This document shows positions 9,959 to 59,038 of a DNA stretch of 64,000 nucleotides, piece by piece. Below the pieces are notes generated by a model, which saw only the letters and a list, made by a program, of their open reading frames with translations, made no database searches and was not told the DNA's origin. Positions within the stretch are counted from its first letter, which is position 1; every line of letters begins with the position of its first letter. Both the position numbers and the translations under genes were made by a program. Source of the DNA: Terriglobia bacterium (lineage in GTDB: Bacteria > Acidobacteriota > Terriglobia > Acidiferrales > UBA7541); assembly GCA_020072785.1 (NCBI GenBank), contig JAIQGG010000002.1, positions 930,001-994,000 on the forward strand. The letters run 5' to 3'.

Positions 9959-10720
9959 ATGAGCGAAATGATTCAGGTGCAGATGGACGGGCGGACGGCG
10001 CGTGTGACGCTGAACCGTCCGCCGCTCAACGTGCTGGACATCGCCATGATGCGCGAGCTGGATGCCGCGCTCGCCCGCGTGGCCACGGAATGCGACCTCC
10101 TGGTCCTGCAGGGCGCCGGGCCCAAGGGCTTTTCCGCCGGCGCCGAGGTTGCCGATCACGTGCCGGAGCGCGTGGGGGAGATGCTCGGCGCGTTCCACGG
10201 CGTCTTTCGCCGCCTGGCGCGCGTGGAATGCGTGACCATCGCCGCGGTCAGCGGCCTGTGCCTCGGCGGCGGGATGGAGCTGGCGACCTTCTGCGACTTC
10301 GTGGTGGCCACGGAAGCGGCGAAGTTCGGCCAGCCGGAGATCAAGCTGGCCTGCTACCCGCCGGTGGCCATGGTGACGTTTCCGCAGCTCTGCGGCATGC
10401 GCGCCGCGATGGACCTGATCTTCACGGGCCGCACGGTGGACGGGCGCGAGGCGCACCGCATGGGTCTGGTGACGCGCCTGGCTCCCGAAGGCGAGCTCGC
10501 AGCCAGCGTGGAGAAATTGCTCGATGAGTTGCGCGGGCTGAGCGGCACCGTGCTGCGCCTGACGCGCAAGACGCTGTGGCGCCTGCACGCCGATGTGTTC
10601 GAAAAGCAGCTCGACGAAGCCGAGCGCATCTACCTGGACGATTTGATGCAGACCAAGGACGCGCCGGAGGGCATCCGCGCATTTCTGGAAAAGCGGCCCC
10701 CGGTCTGGCAGGGACGCTGA
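9959..10720 (+). CDS. Enoyl-CoA hydratase family, possible cyclohexa-1,5-diene-1-carbonyl-CoA hydratase
   Basis: A 253-residue crotonase-fold protein. The N-terminal 'RPPLNVLDIAMMRELDAAL' and the segment 'KFGQPEIKLACYPPVAMVTFP' resemble the dienoyl-CoA hydratases of anaerobic benzoyl-CoA degradation (Dch/BamR), which have a Tyr/Phe-Pro-Pro-Val-Ala stretch there. Both catalytic Glu are present (GGGMELATFCD and GQPEI), so it should hydrate. The assignment to the dienoyl-CoA substrate rests on motif resemblance and on the 4-hydroxybenzoyl-CoA reductase genes 0.8 kb downstream. A generic enoyl-CoA hydratase is the alternative. A good ribosome site (cggagg) precedes ATG 9959, and the stop abuts the rhodanese ATG. 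Confidence 0.68.
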   Translation: MSEMIQVQMDGRTARVTLNRPPLNVLDIAMMRELDAALARVATECDLLVLQGAGPKGFSAGAEVADHVPERVGEMLGAFHGVFRRLARVECVTIAAVSGLCLGGGMELATFCDFVVATEAAKFGQPEIKLACYPPVAMVTFPQLCGMRAAMDLIFTGRTVDGREAHRMGLVTRLAPEGELAASVEKLLDELRGLSGTVLRLTRKTLWRLHADVFEKQLDEAERIYLDDLMQTKDAPEGIRAFLEKRPPVWQGR

Positions 10721-11044
10721 ATGGACGATCTGCAGATTACACCCAAGGAAGTGCAGGAGCGGCTGGAGCGCGGGGAGAAGTTGGTGCTGGTGGATGTGCG
10801 CGAGCAGTGGGAATACGATCTCTGCCGGATCGCGGGCGCGAAGCTGATCCCGCTGAAGACGCTGCCGGCGAACGCCGGCGCACTGGAGGAGGCGGAGGAA
10901 GTGATCTGCTACTGCCACCACGGAATACGCAGCCTGGATGCAGCGGCGTGGCTGCGGGGGCAGGGGATTGCCGGAGCCAAATCGCTGGCGGGCGGGATCG
11001 AACGGTGGTCCCGCGAAGTGGATGCCAGCGTGCCGCGGTATTGA
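10721..11044 (+). CDS. Single-domain rhodanese-like sulfurtransferase
   Basis: A 107-residue rhodanese domain with 'VLVDVREQWEYDLCRIAGAKLIPL' and the active-site loop CHHGIRS (Cys about residue 66), so the persulfide-forming Cys is present. It starts directly at the stop of the preceding hydratase (TGAATG), so translation is probably coupled. Single-domain rhodaneses hand sulfur (or selenium) to acceptors. Position just before a predicted selenoprotein and a molybdenum hydroxylase, whose cofactor needs a terminal sulfido ligand, makes a role in either process an attractive but untested idea. Confidence 0.85.
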   Translation: MDDLQITPKEVQERLERGEKLVLVDVREQWEYDLCRIAGAKLIPLKTLPANAGALEEAEEVICYCHHGIRSLDAAAWLRGQGIAGAKSLAGGIERWSREVDASVPRY

Positions 11045-11117
11045 AGTTGTCTGCCCAGGGGCACGGGCGATGCGGCCCCGGGACGGAACATCGATTGCTC
11101 GTTGCGGGAGGAAATTG

Positions 11118-11471
11118 GTGGCTAAGGCGAAGATCCAGTTTCTGCAGAAGCCGACTTGAACGTCGTGCCGCAAAGCAAGAGGTCTCTTGCTGGAGCAGGG
11201 AGCGGAACTGGAGACGCGCGATCTGGACAAGGAACGCCTGAGCGCGGCTGAACTGGACAAGCTGATCGGCGCGCGGGATTACACGCAGTTTCTGAATACG
11301 CGCAATGAGCTGTACCGCGAACGGAACATGAAAGAAAAGCCGCCGTCGCGCGCCGAGGCCATCCAATTGATGGCCAGGGAGCCAAACCTGATCCGCCGGC
11401 CGGTGGTGATTCGCGGCGGGCAGATGGTGCTGGGTTATGACGAGGAAGCGCTGAAGAAGCTGGTGAAGTAA
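11118..11471 (+). CDS. ArsC/Spx/YffB-like thioredoxin-fold protein with predicted selenocysteine (in-frame UGA)
   Basis: Read from GTG 11118 (strong site gggaggaa at 11106-11113), the frame gives VAKAKIQFLQKPT, then TGA at 11157-11159, then TSCRKARGLLLEQGAELE and an intact ArsC-family protein up to TAA 11471. The family has CxxC (…PTCxxCRKA…) at this point, so the UGA stands exactly where the N-terminal active-site Cys belongs and would give UxxC (Sec14, Cys17; 117 residues). A hairpin with a GGUC loop lies 15-32 nt downstream. The C-terminal 'RRPVVIRGGQMVLGYDEEAL' matches the family, whose members are glutaredoxin-like reductases. No selA/B/C/D gene is in the window. Without Sec decoding, the piece from TTG 11187 would be a useless fragment. 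Confidence 0.8.
11174..11191 (+). promoter_or_regulatory. Predicted bacterial SECIS hairpin
   Basis: AGCAAGA-GGTC-TCTTGCT forms a perfect 7-bp stem with a GGUC loop closed by A-U. This is the same loop and closing pair as the SelB-binding apical loop of the E. coli fdhF SECIS. The first loop G lies 22 nt after the UGA (21 nt between; 18 in fdhF), within the accepted spacing. No bulged U is visible in the 5' arm. Confidence 0.72.
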
Positions 11472-11525: not shown

Positions 11526-12017
11526 ATGCATCGGGAACTGATCCATCTCACGGTAAACGGCGAACGTTACGAAGTGGCGGTGCCGCCGCAGAAGTTGCTG
11601 CTGGACGTGCTGCGCGAAGACCTGGGGCTGACCGGGGCCAAGCGCGGCTGCGACGATTCGAGTTGCGGCGCGTGTACGGTGCTGGTGGACGGCCTGCCGG
11701 TGCTGGCGTGCACGGCGATCGCCTCCTGTCATCAGGAGGCGCAGATCACCACGGTCGAGGGACTGGCCGCGGGTGGCGAACTGACGCCGGTGCAGGTGGC
11801 GTACGGGGAAGCGGGCGGCTCGCAGTGCGGCTTCTGCACGCCGGGCTTCATGATGACGATTCACGCGCTGTTGGCGCAGAACCCCAATCCCACCGATGCG
11901 GAGATCCGCGAGGCGCTCTCCTCGAACCTTTGCCGCTGTACGGGCTACATGCAGATTTACGAAGCGATCCGGCTGGCGATGAAGCGCGCGCCGCAGCCGG
12001 CGGAAGCGAGGAGCTGA
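11526..12017 (+). CDS. hcrC: 4-hydroxybenzoyl-CoA reductase-type molybdoenzyme, 2Fe-2S (gamma) subunit
   Basis: A 163-residue small subunit of the xanthine oxidase family. The plant-type [2Fe-2S] site uses C42, C47, C50 and C62 (GCDDSSCGAC…AC). The second [2Fe-2S] site uses C101, C104, C136 and C138 (QCGFCTPG…CRCTGY). It passes electrons between the molybdenum site of the large subunit and the FAD/Fe-S medium subunit. The length matches the Thauera HcrC (about 161). HcrA follows 3 bp after the stop. The enzyme class is identified mainly by the medium subunit. Confidence 0.86.
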   Translation: MHRELIHLTVNGERYEVAVPPQKLLLDVLREDLGLTGAKRGCDDSSCGACTVLVDGLPVLACTAIASCHQEAQITTVEGLAAGGELTPVQVAYGEAGGSQCGFCTPGFMMTIHALLAQNPNPTDAEIREALSSNLCRCTGYMQIYEAIRLAMKRAPQPAEARS

Positions 12018-12020
12018 GCC

Positions 12021-14348
12021 ATGTCCACCCATTCGATTATCGGCAAATCGATTCCCCTGACCGATACCCCGGGGAAGGTGACGGGTCTCGGCCTCTACGC
12101 CAACGACATCGCCGTCCCGGGCATGCTCTTTGGAAAGATCCTGCATTCGCCGCACGCGCACGCGCGCATCGTGCGCATCGACACGTCCAAGGCGGAAGCC
12201 CTGCCGGAAGTGAAGGCGGTGGCCACGGGACGCGACACCGCGCGGCCCTACGGCGTGCTGCCTATCGGGCACGATGAAAACGCGCTGGCGTTCGACAGGG
12301 CGCGCTACATCGGGGACAACATCGCCGCCGTCGCCGCCACCAGCGAGGAAGCGGCGGAGCGCGCCCTCGAGCTGATCGAAGTGGAATACGAGGTGCTCAC
12401 CCCGTGGACCGATGCTCTGGAGTCCATGAAGGCGGAGAAGGACTGGATTCACGAGAACCGCCCGCACAACATCGAGAAGGAGTACAAACACGAGTTCGGG
12501 AATCTGGAGCAGGGCTTCGCTCAGGCGGCCTTCATCCGCGAAGAACGCTACGTCGCCGCGGAGATCAACCACGCGGCGATGGAGCCGCACTCCACGCTGG
12601 CCGTCTGGGAGCCCGACGGGCGCATCACCGTGCACTCCTCGACGCAGGTGCCCCACTACCTGCACCGTACCATTGCCGACGTGCTGGAACTGCCGATGAG
12701 CCAGGTGCGCGTGATCAAGCCCATGGTCGGCGGCGGATTTGGCGGCAAGAGCGAAGTGATCCCGCTGGAGGTGATCACGCCGGTGCTGGCGAAGAAGGCC
12801 CGGCGCCCGGTGAAGATCACCTACACGCGCGAGGAGGTTTTCTACGCGCACCGCGGCCGGCCGATCACCATCGTGGACCTGAAGATGGGCCTGACGCGGG
12901 AAGGCAAGATATCCGCGGTGGCGGCGCACGTAGTGCAGGATGGCGGGGCGTTTGGCGGATACGGCCCGGTGACGGTGCTCTATTCCGGGGCGCTGCTCGG
13001 CGCCATCTACGACGTGCAGAATCTGCGCTTCGAGGGCTGCCGCGTGCTGACCAACAAGCCGGCCTGCGGGGCGATGCGCGGCCACGGCACGGTAAACGTG
13101 CGCTTCGCATTCGAGTCCATGCTGGATATGCTGGCGCGCGACGCGCAACTGGACCCGGCCGAAGTGCGGCGCAGAAATCTGTTGCCGGCGCCGTGCATCA
13201 CCGTGAACGGGCTGCGCGTCACCAGTTACGGCCTTCCCGAATGCATCGAGAAAGCCGTGGAGCGCTCCGGCTGGCGCGAGAAGAACGGCAAGCTGCCTTA
13301 TGGCCGCGGAATCGGCATCGCCTGCAGCCATTACGTCAGCGGCGCGGCCAACCCCATCATCCGCTCGAACATGCCGCACACCACGGTGAACATGAAGATC
13401 GACCGCGACGCGGCGGTGACGGTGTTCACGGGGGCGTCCGATATTGGGCAGGGGTCGGACACCATACAAGTGCAGATTACCGCGGAGGTGCTGGGCGTGC
13501 GGCCGGAACGCATCAAGCTGGTGGCCGCGGATACGGAGCTGACTCCGGTGGATCTGGGCAGCTACTCGAGCCGGGTCACGTTCATGGCCGGAAACGCCTG
13601 CTTGGAAGCGGCAAAAAACATGCGCGAGCAGATTTTCGCCGCGGTGGCGAAGAAATTCGGCTGCGCGCCGGACGCCCTGGAAGCGCGCCACGAGCAGATC
13701 TTCGTGAAGGCCGATCCGGCGCAGAGCATGCCCTTTGACGAAGCGGTGGTCCGGGCCATCGATTTCCACGGCACCCTGGTGGCGCGCGGCAGCTACGCGC
13801 CTCCGGAAGAGTCGCGCGGCGGAAAGTATAAAGGCGCGGGCGTCGGGCCGTCGCCGTCTTACAGTTACGGGGCGCAGACCGCGGAGGTCTCCGTGGACCC
13901 GGAGACCGGCGAGGTCACCATCCACCGGGTGGTCGCGGCGCACGATTGCGGCAAGGCGCTCAATCCCGTGTCGGTGGACGGGCAGGTCATCGGCTCGGTG
14001 TATATGGGGCTGGGCCAGGCGATGCAGGAGCAGATGGAGTGGAACGAGGGCCGGCTGATGAATCCCTCGCTGCTGGATTACCGCATCCCCACGACCCTCG
14101 AGACGCCGCCGATCGAATCCATCATCGTCGAGAGCGAGGACCCCGAAGGGCCCTTCGGCGCAAAAGAAGCGGGAGAAGGCTCGCTGGCGGCGGCGATCCC
14201 CGCGGTGGCCAACGCCATCTATGACGCGGTGGGCGTGCGCATCAACACGCTCCCGCTTTCCCGGGAAAAAATTCTCGCAGCCATCCGCGAGAAGCAGAAA
14301 CGCGAGCAGGCAGCGGGCGGCTCGAAGAAGACCGGAGGTGCGGCATGA
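12021..14348 (+). CDS. hcrA: 4-hydroxybenzoyl-CoA reductase-type molybdoenzyme, molybdenum (alpha) subunit
   Basis: A 775-residue large subunit of the xanthine oxidase family, close to the 769 of Thauera HcrA. It starts with 'GKSIPLTDTPGKVTGLGLYANDI' (the substrate/cofactor entry domain) and has 'GGGFGGKSEVIPLE' (about residues 237-250), 'CGAMRGHGTVNVRFAFE' (cofactor contact), 'ASDIGQGSDTIQVQI' and 'GAKEAGEGSLAAAIPAVANAI' with the family's catalytic Glu (GEG). The predicted reaction is reductive removal of the phenolic hydroxyl from 4-hydroxybenzoyl-CoA to give benzoyl-CoA. Other hydroxylases of this family cannot be fully excluded from this subunit alone. The stop overlaps hcrB by 4 bp (ATGA). 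Confidence 0.83.
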   Translation: MSTHSIIGKSIPLTDTPGKVTGLGLYANDIAVPGMLFGKILHSPHAHARIVRIDTSKAEALPEVKAVATGRDTARPYGVLPIGHDENALAFDRARYIGDNIAAVAATSEEAAERALELIEVEYEVLTPWTDALESMKAEKDWIHENRPHNIEKEYKHEFGNLEQGFAQAAFIREERYVAAEINHAAMEPHSTLAVWEPDGRITVHSSTQVPHYLHRTIADVLELPMSQVRVIKPMVGGGFGGKSEVIPLEVITPVLAKKARRPVKITYTREEVFYAHRGRPITIVDLKMGLTREGKISAVAAHVVQDGGAFGGYGPVTVLYSGALLGAIYDVQNLRFEGCRVLTNKPACGAMRGHGTVNVRFAFESMLDMLARDAQLDPAEVRRRNLLPAPCITVNGLRVTSYGLPECIEKAVERSGWREKNGKLPYGRGIGIACSHYVSGAANPIIRSNMPHTTVNMKIDRDAAVTVFTGASDIGQGSDTIQVQITAEVLGVRPERIKLVAADTELTPVDLGSYSSRVTFMAGNACLEAAKNMREQIFAAVAKKFGCAPDALEARHEQIFVKADPAQSMPFDEAVVRAIDFHGTLVARGSYAPPEESRGGKYKGAGVGPSPSYSYGAQTAEVSVDPETGEVTIHRVVAAHDCGKALNPVSVDGQVIGSVYMGLGQAMQEQMEWNEGRLMNPSLLDYRIPTTLETPPIESIIVESEDPEGPFGAKEAGEGSLAAAIPAVANAIYDAVGVRINTLPLSREKILAAIREKQKREQAAGGSKKTGGAA

Positions 14349-15358
14349 GCCTTCCCACGTTGCGCGTAGTTCGGCCAAAGGCCGTGGACGAGGCGGTGCG
14401 CATTCTGGCGCAGCACGGCCCGCAAGCGATGATTCTTGCAGGCGGCACGGACATCCTGCCGAATCTGCAGATGCGGCTGTATGCGCCACAGGTGCTGGTA
14501 GGGCTGAAGGAGATTTCCGGGCTGCGCGGCGTCCGCACGGTGAAGGATGGCGCACTGCACATCGGCGCGCTGACCACCTTGAGCGAGTTGCTGGCGGAGC
14601 CGGTGGTGCGGCAGAAATATCCGGTCCTGGCCAGCGCCGCGGCCACCGTGGCCGGCCCGCTGCAGCGCAACATGGCCACCCTGGGCGGCAACCTGTGCCT
14701 GGAGACGCGCTGCCGCTGGTACAACCAGTCGTACTTCTGGCGGCAGTCGCTGGGCGGCTGCCTGAAGAAAGAGGGCACGGTGTGCCACGTCGCGCCCGGC
14801 GGCAACCGCTGCTGGGCGGTCTGGTCGGGGGACACGGCGCCGGCGCTACTGGCGCTGGATGCGGAGATCGAGATCGCCGGTCCGGCAGGCGAGCGGCGCA
14901 TCCCGCTGGAGTCGTTCTACCGCAACGACGGAATGGACCGGATCGCGCTGCGGCCGGGCGAGATCCTGACGGCGGTGCTTTTGCCTGCGGCCAAGGCGGG
15001 CTGGCGCGGCGTCTACAACAAGCTGCGCCTGCGCAATTCCATCGATTACCCGCTGGCAGGCGTGGCCGTGGCCATGAACGTGGACGGCGGCGGCATCTGC
15101 CGCGACGTGCGCGTGGCCATTTCCGCGGTGAATCCAGCGCCGCTGCTGGTGCACCAGGCCGGCGAATCGCTCATCGGCAGGAAATATTCGCAGGAGCTGA
15201 TTGAGCGCGTGGCGCACGCCGCGATCCAGAGAGGCAAGCCGCTCACCACCTCGGGCTCCACGCCCGTCTACCGCCGCGAGATGCTGCAGCTGTACACGCG
15301 CCGCGCTCTGGAAGAAGTGTGGGACGGGCGCACGCACTCTATGGACGGGAACGACTGA
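14345..15358 (+). CDS. hcrB: 4-hydroxybenzoyl-CoA reductase-type molybdoenzyme, FAD and 4Fe-4S (beta) subunit
   Basis: A 337-residue FAD subunit. 'MILAGGTDILPNLQMRL' (about residues 29-45) and 'TVAGPLQRNMATLGGNLC' (101-118) are the FAD-binding motifs. It also has an insertion with four cysteines, C123, C139, C147 and C156. Their spacing (16-8-9) is the one I recall for the extra [4Fe-4S] cluster that distinguishes 4-hydroxybenzoyl-CoA reductase from xanthine oxidase relatives. That cluster lets electrons run from ferredoxin to the aromatic substrate. This is the strongest evidence for the enzyme assignment of the whole hcrCAB operon. Confidence 0.85.
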   Translation: MSLPTLRVVRPKAVDEAVRILAQHGPQAMILAGGTDILPNLQMRLYAPQVLVGLKEISGLRGVRTVKDGALHIGALTTLSELLAEPVVRQKYPVLASAAATVAGPLQRNMATLGGNLCLETRCRWYNQSYFWRQSLGGCLKKEGTVCHVAPGGNRCWAVWSGDTAPALLALDAEIEIAGPAGERRIPLESFYRNDGMDRIALRPGEILTAVLLPAAKAGWRGVYNKLRLRNSIDYPLAGVAVAMNVDGGGICRDVRVAISAVNPAPLLVHQAGESLIGRKYSQELIERVAHAAIQRGKPLTTSGSTPVYRREMLQLYTRRALEEVWDGRTHSMDGND

Positions 15359-33850: not shown

Positions 33851-33954
33851 GGAACTTCGGGTGATCTGCGGCACCCGAGGCGTTCCCGGTACCGTTGCTC
33901 CCTTCCGGGCCTGGCGGGGTTCGCGGGACCTCGTTGCACAGAGCCCGAAGTTCC
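33851..33954 (-). ncRNA. ffs: Signal recognition particle RNA (small bacterial type)
   Basis: The minus strand carries the conserved SRP apical domain around 'CCAGGCCCGGAAGGGAGCA' (plus 33889-33914), the Ffh-binding asymmetric loop and GGAA-type tetraloop. The ends GGAACTTCGGG and CCCGAAGTTCC pair perfectly over 11 bp and define a transcript of about 104 nt. It lies 41 bp upstream of dnaX, an order also known in Bacillus (scr-dnaX-yaaK-recR). A -10-like TAGACT with TTGCGC 19 bp upstream lies further 5' on the minus strand (about 33992-34023). Confidence 0.93.
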
Positions 33955-38570: not shown

Positions 38571-38645
38571 TGGCTCCGGGGCCTGGACTCGAACCAGGAT
38601 ACCCAGATTCAAAGTCTGGTGTGCTGCCAATTGCACCACCCCGGA
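38571..38645 (-). tRNA. tRNA-Gln (anticodon TTG)
   Basis: On the minus strand the acceptor TCCGGGG pairs with CCCCGGA, the D arm is GTGC/GCAC, the anticodon arm CCAGA-CTTTGAA-TCTGG gives anticodon TTG, and the T arm is CCTGG-TTCGAGT-CCAGG. The 3' CCA is encoded. 75 nt. Confidence 0.95.

Positions 38646-38887: not shown

Positions 38888-38977
<90 letters not shown>

Positions 38978-58948: not shown

Positions 58949-59038
<90 letters not shown>

Follow-up and report, generated by a model that had tools for sequence, protein, structure and literature searches.

The window, a 64,000-nucleotide stretch of an acidobacterial genome, carries a gene for a predicted ArsC/Spx-family selenoprotein of 117 residues at positions 11118-11471 of the forward strand. 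Its frame runs from a GTG at 11118 to the stop codon TAA at 11469-11471 and, on reading of the sequence and its translation, is open except for a single in-frame TGA at 11157-11159. This TGA is codon 14, read as selenocysteine (Sec), and occupies the first position of a UxxC motif formed by Sec14 and Cys17. The aligned start codon in the sister genome G007 is ATG, compared to GTG in the window. A Shine-Dalgarno-like GGGAGGA lies at 11106-11112 (forward strand), 5 nt 5' of the GTG, and was judged from the sequence to be a good ribosome site. Downstream of the TGA, positions 11174-11191 of the same strand form an apical hairpin with a perfect 7-bp stem (AGCAAGA/TCTTGCT) and a GGTC loop, with a spacing of 21 nt from the UGA to the first loop G. 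A preliminary description of this DNA had reported the same intact frame, a strong ribosome site and the same hairpin and spacing, and all of these were reproduced on re-reading, with the coordinates exact. It had also anticipated truncation by gene callers, and a standard open reading frame listing indeed breaks the gene at the TGA into a 73-aa frame ending at that codon and a 94-aa frame from TTG 11187. Reassignment of TGA was ruled out because neighbouring genes use it as a terminator, the two upstream genes ending with TGA at 10718-10720 and 11042-11044. On the basis of its sequence, this small gene almost certainly encodes a redox selenoprotein in which Sec replaces the active-site cysteine.

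The genome that holds the window (G000; 3.73 Mb in 11 contigs, 98.9% complete) was searched for the selenocysteine machinery, as the preliminary description had proposed, and all of the components sought were found. Matches to selA (555.6 bits), selB (356.3 bits) and selD (348.7 bits) each exceeded the curated cut-off, and two full-length tRNA-Sec genes with the anticodon TCA are present (L061 7065-7159 and 10714-10808, equivalent to G000:C2:1112064-1112158 and 1115713-1115807). The two tRNA-Sec genes are spaced 3.65 kb apart and differ at 12 of 99 bases, and between them, on the opposite strand, lies a gene encoding a repeat-containing protein of 956 aa. One tRNA-Sec gene is shown in the sister genome G007 and two, 259 bp apart, in G032; multiple tRNA-Sec genes have been reported from a few other genomes (PMC5330540). 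The selD gene of G000 (L056, G000:C1:111200-112165) itself contains one in-frame TGA near the N terminus, with the hairpin GAGTCC-CGGGACGCT-GGACTC after it. An FdhA-like frame (L140, G000:C1:38350-38796) also contains an in-frame TGA and reads NRTUHAPS, the usual Sec-His-Ala-Pro site; its TIGR01553 match falls under the model cut-off, and the frame is probably a selenoprotein formate dehydrogenase.

The hairpin after the TGA is the sole occurrence of a GGTC loop on a perfect stem of at least 5 bp on either strand of the window, and base-shuffled windows gave a mean of 0.05 GGTC stems of at least 7 bp per strand. The fold energy of the UGA region is ordinary (z = -0.14) and was set aside as evidence; what counts is this particular hairpin and the degree to which it is conserved. 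Codons 5-10 after the UGA are the six-codon block with the least synonymous variation in the gene, with a mean normalised synonymous entropy of 0.14 compared to 0.74 in the 71 other columns (Mann-Whitney p = 5e-5), and 26 of 27 sequences use AGA for the stem arginine. Stem positions pair in 99.5% of cells across the 27 sequences, compared to 34-59% in slid controls. In four sequences of another family, f28, a G-C stem pair is replaced by A-U (AGA/CTC to AAA/CTT, exchanging Arg for Lys), and further stem pairs are preserved through wobble changes; most stem pairs are invariant, and formal covariation is confined to one pair, whose four cells may represent a single event. The proposal that this hairpin acts as a SECIS element is supported by this conservation at the DNA level and by the compensatory change across relatives. 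The stem is retained with the loop AGUU in L032, L053 and G057, hairpins differ or are unclear in L024 and in the distant L121, L128 and L136, and stems of the CCAGGA/TCCTGG type, one base out of register, occur in more distant families. No SECIS-type hairpin was seen in the Cys-form sequences. An Rfam search returned no SECIS match; an isrK match on the other strand was below the gathering score and was taken as chance. The window hairpin shares the GGUC loop, the A-U closing pair and the in-frame GGU CUN with the E. coli fdhF SECIS, but it has a different stem sequence and a UGA-to-loop spacing one codon longer than the 18 nt of fdhF.

A search of 60 relatives together with G000 found a close homologue in 32 genomes. 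The UGA column contains TGA in 27 of these genomes and TGC or TGT (Cys) in the other five, and no other codon was found there among the close relatives, which agrees with the earlier suggestion that the UGA would align with the cysteine of related proteins. For 26 of the 27 TGA genomes this codon comes from a direct reading, the exception being a fragment in G037. A selA match was present in all 27 (that of G011 is a contig-end fragment under the cut-off) and tRNA-Sec in 24, the remaining three genomes being at most 86% complete. Neither selA nor tRNA-Sec was found in the Cys-form genome G054, and both are retained in four Cys-form genomes of the genus. Well-supported branches of the tree, which has few columns and a root that is a drawing choice, require at least three Sec/Cys label changes. 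The clustering of the genus Cys rows with the Sec-form G015 suggests a change from Sec to Cys within the genus, as read on few columns and an arbitrary root. A clade profile matched 52 of 396 sampled Acidobacteriota genomes at E ≤ 1e-20, with TGA in 23 of the 52 matches, and in the matches examined in detail the TGA stands at the same codon, except in L118. That sequence (from G186), in which the frame is disturbed ahead of the hairpin, was for this reason excluded from the counts. The TGA form recurs among families across the Acidobacteriota. A distant Sec relative, L131 (G334:C2:19784-20116), has a TAG in frame after the TGA and may be either a decayed copy or a sequence error.

The product had previously been described as an ArsC-like thiol reductase. 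Membership of the ArsC family stands (PF03960, 67.8 bits against a gathering cut-off of 24), but proteins of the Spx/MgsR/YffB type are closer to it than true arsenate reductases are. Among the NCBIfam models, TIGR01617 (Spx/MgsR-related) scores best; its cut-off of 75.05 is barely exceeded at 75.1 bits and lies above the scores of several relatives. The predicted structure has a mean pLDDT of 91.4, and both sequence and fold searches of the PDB rank Spx first, followed by ArsC-related and YffB proteins. A plasmid search gave distant ArsC/Spx proteins only. Invariant residues include Lys11, the Sec/Cys14 column, Cys17, Arg18, Lys19, Arg62, Arg94 and Pro95.

As TGA is one base away from both TGC and TGT, we weighed whether a cysteine codon had turned into TGA, either in a pseudogene or through an assembly error, next to a chance hairpin. 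However, independent assemblies of 27 genomes and several families share the TGA, the frame 3' of it is conserved, as is the hairpin at the DNA level, and we consider such an artifact extremely improbable. A true Sec arsenate reductase serving arsenate detoxification would be consistent with the PF03960 match, the TM-score of 0.82 against E. coli ArsC and the invariant equivalent of ArsC Arg94. This function nevertheless appears distinctly unlikely: the model for glutaredoxin-dependent arsenate reductase (TIGR00014) gave 43.7 bits against a cut-off of 106.05, the ArsC Arg60 column is Asn or Ser throughout, and genes for acyl-CoA metabolism and a rhodanese, rather than ars genes, surround it in the window. 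In the alignment with E. coli ArsC, the Arg107 column borders a large gap.

It is also doubtful that the protein is an Spx-like redox-sensing transcription regulator with a Sec-Cys switch in place of Cys-Cys, even though Spx tops the PDB matches in both sequence (E 2e-12) and fold (TM-score 0.80-0.84), the TIGR01617 cut-off is just passed and the UxxC aligns exactly on the Spx CxxC. The equivalent of Spx Gly52, the known contact to the RNA polymerase alpha subunit, is Tyr55 (phmmer) or a gap (MAFFT), the two aligners disagreeing and neither retaining the glycine, and Spx-specific models scored 58 bits against a cut-off of 123. Given the absence of both an arsenate-contact arginine and the Spx polymerase-contact glycine, this protein is best interpreted as a selenol-thiol reductase.

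The gene directly upstream of the selenoprotein gene encodes a rhodanese-like protein (10721-11044, forward strand; PF00581, 62.3 bits), a possible partner. This rhodanese-like gene (cluster c4) adjoins the selenoprotein gene at most loci of the genus, where the typical arrangement is enoyl-CoA hydratase genes, rhodanese, selenoprotein gene, 3-hydroxyacyl-CoA dehydrogenase, macro domain and methyltransferase-like, the last two labels being assigned by reading translations. The neighbours differ in family f10, and the rhodanese link is therefore not universal. Downstream in the window, a xanthine-dehydrogenase-type trio (2Fe-2S, molybdopterin and FAD subunits) is inserted at 11526-15358 and is absent from this order in most genus relatives. 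A functional link to these molybdenum-hydroxylase genes was considered and, given that most of the genus relatives do not have them next to the selenoprotein gene, abandoned. The window also contains a bacterial small SRP RNA (33852-33950, reverse strand; RF00169, 71.5 bits), a tRNA-Gln (38571-38645, reverse strand) and two tRNA-Ser genes (38888-38977, forward strand, and 58949-59038, reverse strand).

In the proposed mechanism, SelB bound to the GGUC hairpin would deliver Sec-tRNA-Sec to the ribosome at UGA 11157, placing Sec14 in a thioredoxin-fold ArsC/Spx selenoprotein with a Sec-x-x-Cys active site. The substrate attacked by the selenolate of Sec14 would most likely be an oxidised sulfur species (a disulfide, sulfenate or persulfide); Cys17 would resolve the adduct as a Se-S bond, and the enzyme would be reset by a thiol system such as glutaredoxin, thioredoxin or a low-molecular-weight thiol. 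The gene, its Sec codon, the SECIS element and the machinery are strongly supported by the sequence evidence; the thiol-reductase role is reasonably likely, with the redox chemistry taken from family and motif. On account of the conserved rhodanese neighbour, sulfane sulfur or a persulfide is one candidate substrate. More speculatively, the clade may be an undescribed, Acidobacteriota-wide Spx-like Sec subfamily that uses Sec-Cys in place of the Cys-Cys switch, has repeatedly been converted to Cys and acts with a rhodanese in persulfide handling or redox signalling.

The preliminary description had supposed that ArsC-like selenoproteins might have been predicted elsewhere, and they are already published: earlier predictions cover an arsenate reductase (UxxS) and ArsC-like selenoproteins (PMC1088965, PMC1794560), and Table 1 of a 2026 review contains arsenate reductase (UxxS) and the arsenate reductase-like NF041106 (UxxC) (PMC13188914). 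The window protein resembles ArsC_rel_Se_1 (NF041106) in its ArsC family, UxxC motif and UGA-encoded Sec, but at 35.5 bits it stays far under that model's cut-off of 85, as do the tested relatives with a match (28-38). The Sargasso Sea selenoprotein arsenate reductase (PMC1088965; under TIGR00014 in PMC13188914) likewise belongs to the ArsC family and has Sec at the catalytic cysteine; however, its motif is UxxS, whereas that of the window protein ends in Cys, and the window protein falls below the TIGR00014 cut-off. The ArsC-like selenoproteins of Desulfotalea and Desulfuromonas (PMC1794560), likened here by description rather than by sequence, also have a predicted Sec but come from Deltaproteobacteria. 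With the Spx/MgsR and ArsC-related proteins of TIGR01617, the window protein shares the best family score, the best PDB matches, the position of the CxxC and an Arg-Arg-Pro motif, and it differs from them in that Sec takes the place of the first Cys, Gly52 has no equivalent and the Spx-specific cut-offs are not reached. No description of a Sec form of the Spx/MgsR-related branch or of the acidobacterial clade was found in the open-licence literature, and the model libraries searched hold no dedicated selenoprotein family model for this branch. Since the clade lies far under the NF041106 cut-off while ArsC-like UxxC selenoproteins are published, it is, by sequence comparison, a new branch among selenoproteins of a known kind.

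A 2006 survey gave just four selenoproteins in three families for the phylum (PMC1794560). With the present clade this phylum, which is common in soils, gains a well-supported selenoprotein branch, and, as standard gene calling splits the gene, it is probably mis-annotated across many soil genomes. Finally, one genus contains closely related Sec and Cys forms and provides a natural setting in which to ask about the benefit of Sec in this fold.
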